Part shown: piece by piece, positions 23,153 to 38,766 of the stretch
Position numbering within the stretch: the first letter of the stretch is position 1
How the letters are laid out: each line of letters begins with the position of its first letter
Source: an uncultured Prevotella sp.
Lineage (GTDB): Bacteria; Bacteroidota; Bacteroidia; Bacteroidales; Bacteroidaceae
Direction: 5' to 3'
DNA: 64,000 nucleotides
Assembly: GCA_944319935.1 (NCBI GenBank)
Contig: CALUFM010000001.1
Span: 372,001 to 436,000 of the forward strand
Notes under the pieces: model-generated
The model's input: the letters and a program-made list of their open reading frames with translations, nothing else
Told to the model about the DNA's origin: nothing
Databases searched by the model: none
Position numbers and translations under genes: made by a program

Positions 23153-25063
23153 TCATAATGCCACTTTCACAGCCTTACCGTCAGACTTTACGATATATAT
23201 GTCTTTTGCAAGATTGCTGATTTTTGAATCCGACCCACTATACACACATTGGCCGTTTATGGTGTAAATGTTTATTGCTTTTCCATCTGCATTTATTATT
23301 GAGCCATCTTCAACCTTCACATTCTGTTCATTTACCACCATTACATTATTATCTATACCAGTAATTACCATTTCCTTGATGTTATAAAAAAGACACCACG
23401 GCTCAACGGTTGCATACTTGCTTTCACAACCTACAGGCACATACAACACTGCGTTTTCATAAACATTTTCGGAGAAGCCAAAACCATAAGCTCCTCTAAT
23501 CGGAACAGGTCTTTTCATCAAACAATAAATCTCTTTTAAACCTTCACAACCATAAAAAACATCACTACCCATAGTCTGAACGGATTCACCTAACACAATA
23601 CGCTCCAATTTAGAACAATAATTAAATGCCAAATAGTCTATCAACTTAACAGAATTTGGTATGTCGATACTCAACAAGCTAGAACAATTAGAAAACGCAT
23701 AGTGGCCAATTACAGTAATAGAGTTTGGGATTTTAACTCTCGCCAAGCTGGAACAATTTTCAAATGTACAAGCATCTATCTGCGTAACAAAACTTGGTAT
23801 GTCAATGCTTGTCAGGCCATAACAATTCCTAAACGCTGACTCACCTATCGATGTGACAGAGTTCGGAATTACAATATTTGTCAGGCCCGTACAATTATAA
23901 AACGCATAGTTACCAATACATGAGATAGAACTTGGTATGTCAATGCTTGTCAGATTGGCACAACCTTCAAACGAATTGTCGGATATTGACATAACAGTGT
24001 TTGGAATACTTATTGACAGTTTTGCCCCAGGGCAACAAAATAATGTTGTGACATTTTTTGAATAAAGACATCCATCTATTGACGCATAATTCTGATTGCC
24101 ACCATCAACATTTATTTCTGCCAGACTTCTACAATTAGAGAACGCACCAACCCCAATTTCTTCAACAGATTCAGGTATATTGATATCTGTCATACTATTA
24201 CAATTAGAAAACGCACTAGCCCCTATTTCTTCAACAGATTTAGGAATATTGATATCTGTCATACTATTACAATTAGAAAACGCAGATTTTTTTATCGACA
24301 CGACAGAAGAACCAATGCTTAAATCTGTAAGACTTGAACAACTATAAAAAGCCGACTGTCCTATAGTTTCAACTGAATTTCCGATATTGACACTTTTGAG
24401 ATTTGAACAATTGTAAAATGCATTATCAGTTATCGTTGTTACAGTGTTACCAATAGTAACAGATAACAAGGATTTAAGTCCTGAAAAAGGTGTATTGTCA
24501 CTTGAGACGTCTCTTCCCAAGTATATTGCTTTCACAGGAGTCCTTTCATCCCCCAAACCCACACTAAACGCATTTGATGATATTTTCAGTTCATTACTAC
24601 CGTCTTCAAATACAATATCACTCAAAACAGGACAAAAACCAAACACCTGTTCACCAATAAATGCAACAGAGTTCGGAACATAGATATTCGCAAGACCTGA
24701 ACATCCCGCAAACGCATAATCACCAATATATGTAATAGTGTGCGGAATACTCACACTTTTTAAATCTACACAATCTTCAAACGCACCAAGGTATCCCAAT
24801 TCATCCCCATGAATACCAATAACCGTAAACGTTTTTCCATCAAACATAACATGTTCAGGAATAATAATATCACCTTCATATTTTTGACCTCCAAATGTTA
24901 TCTCACAAGTCAAATCATCCTGTGATAGAACATTGAAATACATACCATCAACAATGAAGTCATAAGCAGTTGCACTAATGCTGAATAAAAGACAGACAAC
25001 CAACACTTGCAACTTCAAAAAATTAATAAATTTTCTTTTAATCAATTCTCCAGCTATCAACAT
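23153..25063 (-). CDS. BspA-like leucine-rich repeat surface protein
   Basis: I place the start at the ATG at 25063, because the longer frame to 25123 would run into the terminator of the upstream RNA. A hydrophobic signal (FLKLQVLVVCLLFSISATA) lies about 15 residues in. Some 15 LRR_5 (BspA, treponemal type) units of 23 residues follow, with the pattern LTSIDIPSSVTxIGxxAFxNC. The last 70 residues (INIYTINGQCVYSG, then YIVKSDGKAVKVAL) resemble a type IX secretion sorting domain. The gene is clearly richer in A+T than its neighbours. BspA-like proteins mediate adhesion and coaggregation in oral and gut Bacteroidales; a similar role here is inference. Confidence 0.88.
   Translation of the reverse strand: MLIAGELIKRKFINFLKLQVLVVCLLFSISATAYDFIVDGMYFNVLSQDDLTCEITFGGQKYEGDIIIPEHVMFDGKTFTVIGIHGDELGYLGAFEDCVDLKSVSIPHTITYIGDYAFAGCSGLANIYVPNSVAFIGEQVFGFCPVLSDIVFEDGSNELKISSNAFSVGLGDERTPVKAIYLGRDVSSDNTPFSGLKSLLSVTIGNTVTTITDNAFYNCSNLKSVNIGNSVETIGQSAFYSCSSLTDLSIGSSVVSIKKSAFSNCNSMTDINIPKSVEEIGASAFSNCNSMTDINIPESVEEIGVGAFSNCRSLAEINVDGGNQNYASIDGCLYSKNVTTLFCCPGAKLSISIPNTVMSISDNSFEGCANLTSIDIPSSISCIGNYAFYNCTGLTNIVIPNSVTSIGESAFRNCYGLTSIDIPSFVTQIDACTFENCSSLARVKIPNSITVIGHYAFSNCSSLLSIDIPNSVKLIDYLAFNYCSKLERIVLGESVQTMGSDVFYGCEGLKEIYCLMKRPVPIRGAYGFGFSENVYENAVLYVPVGCESKYATVEPWCLFYNIKEMVITGIDNNVMVVNEQNVKVEDGSIINADGKAINIYTINGQCVYSGSDSKISNLAKDIYIVKSDGKAVKVAL
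24157..24290. repeat. 69-bp near-identical tandem repeat inside the LRR gene
   Basis: Units starting at 24157 and 24226 are offset by exactly 69 nt (23 codons, one LRR) and differ at only a few positions. The likeness is at the nucleotide level, so the duplication is recent. Confidence 0.8.
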
Positions 25064-33215: not shown

Positions 33216-33818
33216 TCACGACAGGCTGCTGAGCCGCGCGATATACTTGCCAAGGATGTCGAACTCGATGTTGACCTTCGTTCCTATTTTTATATCCCTG
33301 AAGTTTGTATGTTCAAACGTATAAGGTATAATGGCCACGGTAAAAGAGTCATCCGTAGGGTTGCACACCGTCAGCGAAACGCCGTTGACAGTCACGCTGC
33401 CCTTGTCAACCGTGAAATACCCTCGGCGCGCCATCTCCCTGTCAAAAGCGTACTTGAACGTGAAATACGTGCTGCCGTCAGCGTCCTTCATGTCCACGCA
33501 CTCGGCGGTCATGTCAACATGTCCCTGCACGATGTGGCCGTCGAGGCGGCCGTTCATCAGCATCGAACGCTCAACGTTCACCCTGTCGCCGACCTTCAGG
33601 AGGCCGAGGTTTGAGCGGTCGAGCGTCTCCTTCATGGCCGTCACCGTATAACAACCATCCCCGAGGCGCACCACCGTCAGGCACACCCCGTTGTGCGACA
33701 CGCTTTGGTCAATCTTCAATTCGCCCGCAAACGAACACTCAAGCGTCAGGTCAACGTTGCCTTGATACCTATCTACCGCCTTGACGACGGCTGTCTCTTC
33801 TACAATTCCAGAAAACAT
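33216..33818 (-). CDS. ribE: Riboflavin synthase alpha chain
   Basis: The 200-residue enzyme dismutates 6,7-dimethyl-8-ribityllumazine to riboflavin. It has the two lumazine-binding barrels: MFSGIVEETAVVK with NGVCLTVV in the first, and VQGHVDMTAECVD with VNGVSLTVCNP in the second, then a C-terminal trimerisation helix. It stands as a single gene with a leader of about 260 nt that contains the structured RNA at 33885-34070. No other rib gene is in the window. Confidence 0.95.
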   Translation of the reverse strand: MFSGIVEETAVVKAVDRYQGNVDLTLECSFAGELKIDQSVSHNGVCLTVVRLGDGCYTVTAMKETLDRSNLGLLKVGDRVNVERSMLMNGRLDGHIVQGHVDMTAECVDMKDADGSTYFTFKYAFDREMARRGYFTVDKGSVTVNGVSLTVCNPTDDSFTVAIIPYTFEHTNFRDIKIGTKVNIEFDILGKYIARLSSLS

Positions 33819-33850
33819 AATTCAAAGTTTGAAGCGTTATTACACAATAC

Positions 33851-33875
33851 AGGGCAGGAACAAAGTCCCTGCCCT
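33851..33875 (-). promoter_or_regulatory. Strong hairpin just upstream of ribE
   Basis: The arms 33851-33860 and 33866-33875 form a 10-bp GC-rich stem with one G-U and a 5-nt loop, 33 nt before the ribE ATG. It lacks a T-run on the minus strand. It may be the expression platform of the structured leader. Confidence 0.55.
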
Positions 33876-33884
33876 CGTATTATT

Positions 33885-34070
33885 TAAAAGACCGTACCAG
33901 TGATGTGATGAAAACTCCGAGCTATATAAGATTTGAGAGCCCTCCGCCTTTGTAATCCACCGGCTTTACAGCTATGCCTTGCGGCATTGTGGCCCGCCAT
34001 TGGCAAGAGGAGTCATCTCGGTTTTCGTTTTTTTATTGATGAGTATCCCGATCGAACCAATACGGTCTAT
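33885..34070 (-). ncRNA. Structured RNA leader of ribE, type not identified
   Basis: On the minus strand the element is closed by the 8-bp helix AGACCGTA (34068-34061) with TACGGTCT (33896-33889). Inside is GAAAA-CCGAG (34026-34017) with CTCGG-TTTTC (33921-33910, 2-nt bulge), then CCTCTTGCC (34010-34002) with GGCGGAGG (33948-33941), then CCAC/GTGG (33992-33989 / 33960-33957). The last encloses two adjacent hairpins with GNRA loops: ATGCC-GCAA-GGCAT (33987-33974) and GCT-GTAA-AGC (33972-33963). The FMN riboswitch signature is absent. Its place between a strong promoter and ribE suggests a cis-regulator; a separate small RNA is possible. Confidence 0.65.
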
Positions 34071-34088
34071 TTTTCATCTTTCTTTTTG

Positions 34089-34120
34089 CAAAGATAGGCA
34101 TTTATCCGCAATCATGCAAA
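34089..34120 (-). promoter_or_regulatory. Promoter of the ribE leader
   Basis: On the minus strand TTTG (34120-34117), a 20-nt spacer and TATCTTTG (34096-34089) match the consensus fully. Transcription would start near 34082, just before the structured RNA. Confidence 0.75.
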
Positions 34121-34204: not shown

Positions 34205-34301
34205 CCTGGCAGCCAGAATGTTACCAAAAGGCCATCTTTTACGTCCCAAAACACGGCCTTTTAGCGTGCGTTTCACGGCCTTTCGCAACGCCGTTTGCCG
34301 C
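34205..34301 (+). repeat. Intergenic repeat, copy 1
   Basis: It contains AAAAGGCCATCTTTTA, an eroded partner GGCCTTTT, then AGCGTGCGTTTCACGGCC and CGCCGTTTGCCGC. Copy 2 at 38671-38766 has the same order and orientation. The two copies enclose the YD-repeat and immunity-like genes. Confidence 0.8.
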
Positions 34302-34333: not shown

Positions 34334-37300
34334 TTACTTCATGTAATTATACGTATACTTTTCCAGCATTCGGTTAATTCCACCTTCCCTAAAACTTTTA
34401 CCTGCAAGCCTCCCTGCGATGTCATAGTCATAATATGTACAAAAACCACGAACGTCAGTTATTGACGTGACGCCGACAAGCGGCTTGAATGTTGCTACAG
34501 TGACATCCGCCTCCGGTAGCCTGTCCCGCAAGCCGTTTAGGGCGGAAAATACGGAAGAGCCTGGATTGTTCGCATGCTCCACATCATAAAGCATGTCGTC
34601 ACCCAACAAAGAACGCACCGTTGGAAAATCGCAATTCCGTATCACTGCGACAGGATAAACACCGCCGTATCCCCACAATATCACCGTCGTGCCGTCGTCG
34701 GCCGTCACAGACATAGGCTTGCCCGTGTCCGTATACTGGCCGTATGACACCTTGACACGATAGAACTTGCCTACATTGCTTTCAGCCATCAGCTCCGTGT
34801 TTTCCGTTTCGCTTTCCGACTGCGGCAGCAACTTGCCGTCATAATCCGCATAGTCCGTCTTCGTCGCGCGTATGACCTGCCCTCCATGCCAAAGTTGTTG
34901 TTCCACAGGAACGCCTATCATATGGTTGAATTCCATTTTCTCATAAATGGCACCAGCCTTGTCGCCAGCGTAAATATATTTTCTCTTATATGTCTTTCCG
35001 TCCACCCTGAATTCTTCGTGCGACAACTGGAAATCATCATTATAAAAATAATTGGTCTCCTTTTCCATATCACCATTCCGTCCGTATGTCATTTCAGCTT
35101 TCCGCGCAAGGCTCGGCCAACATATCACATATTTGTAAAAATGATATTTCAATTCGCCTTCACGAAGCATGAAGCCATAAACCGTATGCCCGTACAATTG
35201 AGTGTACTCATACTCAGCCCTCCCGAGACACGTAACCCCCTGCATGAAACTCTCGCTCTCCAACAGGCCGTTATAGCAGTTTGGCGTTGAAGGTATGAAA
35301 GGGTAATCGCTGTCATGCGTTTCTGGTTCGTTATGGTATGTGCGTATTACGCTTGTATTGTCCCCGCGTGTTTCAGTCACTCTGTCATAGCCGTAAATGT
35401 ATCCGTCCTTCAGCGTACCCATCGGTGTCACAGCCTCCGAGTTCTGCACCAAGTATTCGTGGTAATAATATTTTTCCTCATCTCGATAATAGTCCTCGTC
35501 GTAACGATACGCCGTAATCGGCTGCACGAGAAGCTTCGCCCCGTCATAAGCAAACTCACGCTTATCTGTTCCACGTATTTCTTTTATCCGCAAGCCTCCG
35601 AGACTTACGGTTTCACCAGGCTCCAGCACCGTCGCCTTGTACTTGAAATACACCGCAATGTAAACATCCCGAACAGGAGCGTAAACCTCAAAACTGTAAG
35701 TTCCAGCCGTAAGGAAGTCAGTGTAATGCGGGTAATTGTATTCATAATCAGTCTTTATCTCCGACGGCACTGTCAGAGAGTACCGATAATCATCATACTT
35801 CGTGCCGTCCGCTTTAAGCTTGTAAACCCTGAATATAGGATAGGCCTCATGGTCATACCAACAATTCGGGTCTTCCTTTCTCGTCGTATTTTCCAAATGC
35901 GCCCAAAACTCCACATGCGTATCCTCGGCAAACGTTATTATCTTGGAACTTTCCTTCTGCAGGTTTTCGTCCACGTAGTCAGTGGATTCATACCTGTTGA
36001 ACACCGCAAGCCCTATTCTCTTGTCCTTGACAACGGGCGTAGGCGCGGACGTGCTTGTGTGAGTGTCATAAACGAACGTAACCTTTTCACCTGTAGGATA
36101 CGTCAAGGTGTTCAACGTCCCGGAACGCATGTAGGCTATGTTGCCTGTCTTGTCAGCGCCGAAAAATGTCTTTCCACCGTAAGAAGCCGAGCAAAAATAG
36201 TCTGAGCCTTGCTCTACGCCGTTGCTGTAGCCCCAGTAATCAGTGTTGTTTGAGTTCTTTGGAGGCAACGGATGGTCATTGAAATAAGTCATCTTATATT
36301 CTATGCTCGTGTCAAGGCAGTCGGCCACCTTGTCAAGCATGAGCCTTTTGTAAACGTATGCGAAATCTCCTGGCATGCTTGGATTCATATAAGAATAAGA
36401 AAAAGCATATTGCCTTATCATGTCACCGAGGTTGTTCTTCACCGTTACCTTGTCAAGTTTCTTGGGCGCGCAGTCCGCCTCCCATTCCTTCACATCACCC
36501 CTCTCCGAAGCGTCGAACACGACATTGCCGCCATTCCATGACACCTTGACCAACCGATAACTCTCTACAACGGTCTTTGAACACGAATACCTTGTGTTTG
36601 AACCTATCGTGCCAGCAGAACCATAACCTGCCAAATAATTGTATTTCACCGCAGATTCGTGTGTAGGCAACATGTATGACTCTTTTTCATAACTGAAATT
36701 GACGTTAAGCCCTTTCACCGTCGTTATCTGCGTAAGCAGCCAAGACGACGTGTATTTCATAGGAGGGTCATACCTGTATTCCACCGTGCTGCGTGTCTCA
36801 TCCAAATTGTTGTTGCTCGGCTTGTTGCTGTTCAAGTTTCCGACACGTGAATAAACCCAAGTTATTTCCTTTTGCCTGAAAGTGTACTTGTTGCCATAAA
36901 CATCAGTTATGATGAATGTATACACACCGTTTTGCCCTGTCTTCTTCCCATCAAGCTCAATTTTGACATTGGCTTTGCCCGTCTTTGTCAACAACACGGG
37001 GCCACGCGATTTGTCCATTAGGAATTTCCCGCTGCCTCCGGGTATGCTGTAGAAGAAGATGTCCGGCTCAGAGTCTTTTTTCAATTTCACGTCTAAGCCT
37101 GAAACGCTGAAATAACTTTCATCCAACGGAGCCATGGCTTCAGGGGCGTCATAATAGCCCTGTTCAATCCCGTTTTCATAAGAATCCAAATACTCGTGAA
37201 AATCATCACTGCACCTCACCGTGCGCGACACGACTCCTCCGCATTCCAAACTCCAGCCCAAGCCGACCCATGTAGCCTCTTGGCTGACCCGTATGCCTGA

Positions 37301-37630
37301 AGCATGATAATTCAATGTTATCGGTATCTTGACGTCTTGCATGTCTATCTCATACAACGGTATGCTTATTTCCGGCGTTCCCGTGTAATACGAAACAGGG
37401 CAATCAACATATTGCAGCAGCCCCGAAACATTTGGAGCTTTAGGTTCATACGACATCACGCCGTGATTAATCGTGCTGTAAAAATCATCATCTGCAGCAA
37501 GCGCAGACGCCCCTTTGGACACAACCGCCGTATCAATAACCGAAACTACCGTATCCTTGACATTCACCGCAACTGCTGACTTGGGAAGCAAAAGGAACAC
37601 AAACGATATTATGACATAAAACTTTTCCAT
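34334..37630 (-). CDS. Large exported YD-repeat (Rhs-like) protein
   Basis: The 1098-residue protein has a signal peptide (MEKFYVIISFVFLLLPKSAVA) and then the N-terminal region of Bacteroidetes Rhs/YD proteins: YTGTPEISIPLYEID, ITLNYHASGIRVSQEATWVG and LGWSLECGGVVSRTVR. It ends soon after one YD motif (YYDYDIAGRLAGKSFREGG); the YD shell array, the Rhs-associated core and a C-terminal toxin are absent. Similar long proteins are frequent in Bacteroidales and uncharacterised. The gene upstream encodes an immunity-like protein, so the locus may be a remnant or a carrier of a polymorphic toxin. Flanking repeats at both ends suggest it is a cassette. Confidence 0.8.
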   Translation of the reverse strand: MEKFYVIISFVFLLLPKSAVAVNVKDTVVSVIDTAVVSKGASALAADDDFYSTINHGVMSYEPKAPNVSGLLQYVDCPVSYYTGTPEISIPLYEIDMQDVKIPITLNYHASGIRVSQEATWVGLGWSLECGGVVSRTVRCSDDFHEYLDSYENGIEQGYYDAPEAMAPLDESYFSVSGLDVKLKKDSEPDIFFYSIPGGSGKFLMDKSRGPVLLTKTGKANVKIELDGKKTGQNGVYTFIITDVYGNKYTFRQKEITWVYSRVGNLNSNKPSNNNLDETRSTVEYRYDPPMKYTSSWLLTQITTVKGLNVNFSYEKESYMLPTHESAVKYNYLAGYGSAGTIGSNTRYSCSKTVVESYRLVKVSWNGGNVVFDASERGDVKEWEADCAPKKLDKVTVKNNLGDMIRQYAFSYSYMNPSMPGDFAYVYKRLMLDKVADCLDTSIEYKMTYFNDHPLPPKNSNNTDYWGYSNGVEQGSDYFCSASYGGKTFFGADKTGNIAYMRSGTLNTLTYPTGEKVTFVYDTHTSTSAPTPVVKDKRIGLAVFNRYESTDYVDENLQKESSKIITFAEDTHVEFWAHLENTTRKEDPNCWYDHEAYPIFRVYKLKADGTKYDDYRYSLTVPSEIKTDYEYNYPHYTDFLTAGTYSFEVYAPVRDVYIAVYFKYKATVLEPGETVSLGGLRIKEIRGTDKREFAYDGAKLLVQPITAYRYDEDYYRDEEKYYYHEYLVQNSEAVTPMGTLKDGYIYGYDRVTETRGDNTSVIRTYHNEPETHDSDYPFIPSTPNCYNGLLESESFMQGVTCLGRAEYEYTQLYGHTVYGFMLREGELKYHFYKYVICWPSLARKAEMTYGRNGDMEKETNYFYNDDFQLSHEEFRVDGKTYKRKYIYAGDKAGAIYEKMEFNHMIGVPVEQQLWHGGQVIRATKTDYADYDGKLLPQSESETENTELMAESNVGKFYRVKVSYGQYTDTGKPMSVTADDGTTVILWGYGGVYPVAVIRNCDFPTVRSLLGDDMLYDVEHANNPGSSVFSALNGLRDRLPEADVTVATFKPLVGVTSITDVRGFCTYYDYDIAGRLAGKSFREGGINRMLEKYTYNYMK

Positions 37631-38670: not shown

Positions 38671-38766
38671 CCTGACAACCAACACGTTACAAAAGGCCAT
38701 CTTTTAGGGCGTAAAAGATGGCCTTTTGGCGTGCGTTTCATGGCCTTTCAAGACGCCGTTTGCCGC
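38671..38766 (+). repeat. Intergenic repeat, copy 2
   Basis: It opens with a perfect 16-bp hairpin, aaaaggccatctttta (38691-38706) and taaaagatggcctttt (38712-38727) around gggcg, followed by GGCGTGCGTTTCATGGCC and GACGCCGTTTGCCGC. It is in the same orientation as copy 1 at 34205-34301. Confidence 0.8.

Follow-up and report, generated by a model that had tools for sequence, protein, structure and literature searches.

A Bacteroidales-1 RNA, likely of the 6S type, precedes the riboflavin synthase gene in a Prevotella genome

What is the structured RNA that lies between a strong promoter and ribE in a Prevotella genome, and does it serve riboflavin synthesis? We examined this question in a 64,000-nucleotide stretch of DNA from an uncultured Prevotella sp., hereafter the window. 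On the minus strand, the order is TTTG (34120-34117), 20 nt, TATCTTTG (34096-34089), the structured RNA, a GC-rich hairpin and ribE. The Bacteroidetes-type promoter TTTG-N20-TATCTTTG (34089-34120, minus strand), recognized from its sequence, is exactly where a preliminary description of the locus had placed it; a sigma-70 promoter scan returned no match, as expected for Bacteroidetes. The terminator-like GC-rich hairpin, also noted earlier, occupies 33875-33851 of the same strand between the RNA and ribE and ends 32 nt 5' of the ATG. The ribE gene itself (33216-33818, minus strand) encodes a riboflavin synthase of 200 aa (NCBIfam TIGR00187, 191.8 bits, over cut-off). The leader had been described as an unidentified structured RNA, either a new cis-regulatory RNA for riboflavin synthase or a separate small RNA sharing the site.

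The DNA around the RNA has features of its own. Upstream of the RNA is an ORF of 1098 aa (34334-37630, minus strand), which resembles RHS/YD-repeat proteins by eye and had no NCBIfam match. It is flanked on either side by a 77-nt repeat (34225-34301 and 38690-38766, 86% identical). The repeat has the core AAAAGGCCATCTTTTA, of which the genome contains 8 copies (reversed control, 0) and which is present as an inverted pair at 38691-38727. The repeat resembles a small palindromic element of the dispersed type. Elsewhere in the window, two tandem 69-nt units that are 83% identical lie at 24110-24247.

The identity of the RNA was examined by cmscan against Rfam, the check that the preliminary description had called for and in which a confident match was to count against its proposal. 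RF01693 (Bacteroidales-1) matched at 33884-34067 on the minus strand with 133.9 bits (gathering score 60, E 3.7e-22) over the full length of the model (1-179). The leader RNA is a member of an already catalogued family; the structured element is confirmed as real, and the label "unidentified" was wrong. Bacteroidales-1 was described by Weinberg et al. in 2010, who marked cis-regulation with a "?" (PMC2864571), and its Rfam annotation reads "6S-Bacteroidales RNA suggested". The FMN riboswitch model RF00050 had no covariance-model match in the window or in the source genome, in agreement with the earlier statement that the FMN riboswitch core is absent. Two sub-threshold Rfam matches overlap the RNA, one to Prevotella-2 (21 bits) and one to mir-1181 (19.1 bits), and were judged to be due to chance. 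The source genome has a single copy of Bacteroidales-1 RNA. Across the family, 145 of 151 genomes carry it, likewise in one copy, and these cover all 22 sampled genera; order-wide, it was found in 39 of 148 genomes. As for RF01693 members, a Bacteroidetes promoter stands directly upstream of the window RNA and its homologues, with TAnnTTTG no more than 75 nt upstream in 71 of 76 homologue loci (shuffled mean 3.4).

We explored the possibility that the RNA is a cis-regulatory, riboswitch-like element that senses a flavin or a related ligand and controls ribE. In 70 loci of the window's lineage, the RNA precedes ribE on the same strand and the gap is often short, which would fit such a role, as would the apparent dependence of ribE on the promoter of the RNA; the question mark of Weinberg et al. 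left room for it as well. A cis-regulator of ribE would be associated with that gene across the range of the RNA. We therefore looked at 40 loci outside the genus of the window, representing 21 further genera of the family as well as four additional families, with about 3 kb per locus. Although these RNAs carry the same conserved core, ribE was beside the RNA, within about 3 kb, in 0 of the 40. A terminator hairpin was found 90 nt or less downstream of the RNA in 31 of the 40 (shuffled 5.6), and the downstream gene was frequently on the opposite strand. Since the RNA is beside ribE in none of these 40 loci, it is not a riboflavin switch. Instead, it is a free-standing small RNA whose link to ribE is local to one lineage. 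The RNA is also not an FMN riboswitch, and in relatives it coincides with matches to 6S-Flavo (see below), which leaves a flavin-sensing leader highly improbable. Together with the Rfam match and the occurrence in every sampled genus, these observations remove the proposal of a new cis-regulatory RNA for riboflavin synthase and bear out the alternative offered alongside it, a separate small RNA at the same site. In loci L111-L150, the RNA is often preceded by a gene of 114-116 aa that resembles rplT (ribosomal protein L20) by eye. Near one Bacteroidales-1 gene there is a sub-threshold match to the FopS sRNA model RF04319 (L163:2329-2410, minus strand; 46.5 vs 56 bits).

To gain insight into the structure of the RNA, we analyzed its folding and the covariation among 102 distinct homologues aligned via sequence anchors only. 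The RNA folds better than dinucleotide shuffles, with z scores of -2.44 for 33880-34070 and -3.62 for 33849-34082, the latter including the hairpin. No pair reached E < 0.05 in a pairwise G-test scan for covariation, and the top-ranking pairs were mostly artefacts, produced by a 3' block that was out of register. After the alignment was re-anchored, the scan was replaced by a helix test, which counts the branches on a FastTree tree where both sides of a pair changed and pairing was kept. The null kept the number of changes per column and placed them independently in 100 simulations.

All helices discussed here are on the minus strand. P1 was proposed earlier as AGACCGUA/UACGGUCU (34068-34061 with 33896-33889), and the compensatory changes bear it out, with 33 branch events against a null mean of 5.3 and a maximum of 15. 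It extends to 12-13 pairs, so that its strands span 34056-34068 and 33889-33901, the latter with a U-rich tract directly behind it. Because some lineages carry bulges, canonical pairs make up only 75% of P1 in the register used. The P2 of the preliminary description (34026-34017 with 33921-33910) fared differently: its complementarity is present in the sequence, but its evolutionary support is lacking. It had 1 compensatory event against a null maximum of 3, its canonical pairing was inside the null range, and it is broken at 34021/33915 in 8 sequences. It was rejected on covariation, and its 3' strand pairs with 34047-34041 instead. In this revised P2, GAUACUC (34041-34047) pairs with GAGUUUUC (33910-33917); canonical pairs fill 99.3% of the cells of the core ACUC:GAGU, and 8 sequences have G-C in place of its C-G pair, giving 2 events against a null maximum of 1 for a helix that was proposed post hoc, after inspection of the alignment. 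The revised P2 is absent from the RNAalifold consensus, which shows a small, questionable hairpin in this region.

The terminal stem (33935-34019) comprises GAG:CUC, P3, P4 and two GNRA hairpins. P3 (34013-34002/33939-33948), whose complementarity had been noticed earlier, gained firm support with 32 events against a null maximum of 11, and P4 (33992-33989/33957-33960) had 10 against 2. The short GAG:CUC helix (34019-34017/33935-33937), also proposed post hoc from the alignment, had 4 against 2. The GCAA and GTAA hairpins are both present as described, and the GUAA hairpin showed 12 events against a null maximum of 5. Between the terminal stem and the closing stem formed by P1 and the revised P2, the 102-sequence covariation model leaves a central bubble unpaired, with a 5' strand at 34040-34020 and a 3' strand at 33934-33918. 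The RNA is thus a rod with a closing stem, a large central bubble and a terminal stem, the architecture of a 6S RNA, its revised P2 being a post hoc helix.

The homology of the RNA to an accepted 6S family was examined with the Rfam models RF00013 and RF01685 (6S-Flavo). Neither model matched in the source genome, and the window RNA has no direct match to RF01685. The connection is indirect and runs through relatives from other Bacteroidales families. In one genome (G225), RF01693 at 103.4 bits (over threshold) and RF01685 at 36.9 bits fall on the same place and strand, and the two also coincide, at lower scores, in G259, L152 and L153; all four RF01685 matches in these Bacteroidales genomes are below its gathering score. 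Two unrelated weak matches at one spot in megabase genomes are unexpected by chance, and we therefore counted the coincidence for a 6S RNA. A 6S RNA and its pRNAs have been detected by dRNA-seq in B. thetaiotaomicron (PMC7366714), and the equivalence of that RNA to an RF01693 locus is putative. The single copy, the conserved promoter, the covarying rod and the coincidence with 6S-Flavo all back the 6S reading. The RNA might instead be a small RNA unrelated to 6S that merely happens to be located before ribE, as we found no functional test of RF01693 in the literature examined and Rfam says only "suggested". This is rather unlikely given the 6S-Flavo overlap, the 6S-like rod with its central bubble and the single copy family-wide, in a source genome that has no other match to a 6S model. 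We conclude that the Bacteroidales-1 element is very likely the 6S-type RNA of the Bacteroidales, and that a 6S-ribE unit is probable in the genus of the window.

We propose that transcription from a strong housekeeping promoter belonging to the RNA yields a small RNA about 190 nt long, which would end after P1 or at the next hairpin. It would bind the RNA polymerase holoenzyme as a mimic of an open promoter, and a pRNA may be copied from the 5' strand of the bubble, the possible template side. Synthesis of the pRNA would open the revised P2 and so release the RNA. We speculate that the pairing 34026-34017/33910-33921 is an alternative conformation adopted once the pRNA has opened the revised P2.

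How, then, is ribE expressed behind such an RNA? Relatives of ribE were fetched from named genomes, mostly Prevotella and Bacteroides relatives. The gap between the RNA and ribE in the 70 loci noted above is 22-408 nt with a median of 51; in one exception (L029), ribE is convergent with the RNA. TAnnTTTG or TAnnTTnG occurred in 0 of the 70 gaps (shuffled 3.1 for TAnnTTTG), whereas TAnnTTTG was found in 19 of 28 ribE upstream regions without the RNA (shuffled 3.0), these loci being related by descent and not independent trials. The lack of a ribE promoter element in the gap, compared with the regions without the RNA, suggests that the RNA and ribE probably form a 6S-ribE transcription unit in this genus, with ribE supplied by read-through from the RNA promoter. 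The earlier suggestion that this promoter runs on into ribE thus stands for this genus, as an inference from the gap sequences. Part of the transcripts would read through into ribE, and partial termination would set the ratio. Hairpin terminators, found in 21 of the 70 gaps (0 of 41 among gaps <60 nt), would lower this read-through and count against it. They are also compatible, as is the U-rich tract immediately after P1, with a 6S RNA that does not feed ribE, the gene having its own unrecognized and unusual promoter in the gap. We consider this unlikely, though by no means negligible, because the known elements are missing from the gaps and because 41 of the 70 are shorter than 60 nt and have little space for a full promoter. 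The 6S-ribE transcription unit can be taken further. In Prevotella and its close relatives, ribE may have lost its own promoter and be expressed solely via 6S read-through, with the P2 of the preliminary description as an alternative conformation of the RNA; we put this forward only tentatively. If true, the dependence of ribE on 6S read-through would tie flavin synthesis to 6S output.

These results settle the identity of the ribE leader as Bacteroidales-1, provide an independent argument for placing Bacteroidales-1 and 6S-Flavo in a single 6S RNA lineage, and add closing helices that are absent from the Rfam consensus. What remains of interest at the locus is its link to 6S-Flavo, the extension of the structure and the probable 6S-ribE unit; its reading as a riboflavin switch is not supported. 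The window RNA resembles the RF01693 consensus in its conserved blocks, promoter and apical hairpins, but the P1 and P2 strands, unpaired in that consensus, form covarying closing helices here. The window RNA does not match the 6S-Flavo model itself, yet the ends ACUCAAC ... GGAGUUU are common to both families and their loci coincide in four genomes. Like the FMN riboswitch RF00050, it is a structured leader of a riboflavin gene; unlike it, the window RNA shows no link to flavin genes elsewhere. The closest parallel is with E. coli, where 6S RNA is transcribed together with ygfA (PMC2848244). RF00013 is unmatched in the source genome and the partner here is ribE rather than ygfA. As in the still unexplained ssrS-ygfA pairing, however, a 6S-like architecture is followed by a metabolic gene that is probably expressed off the same promoter.
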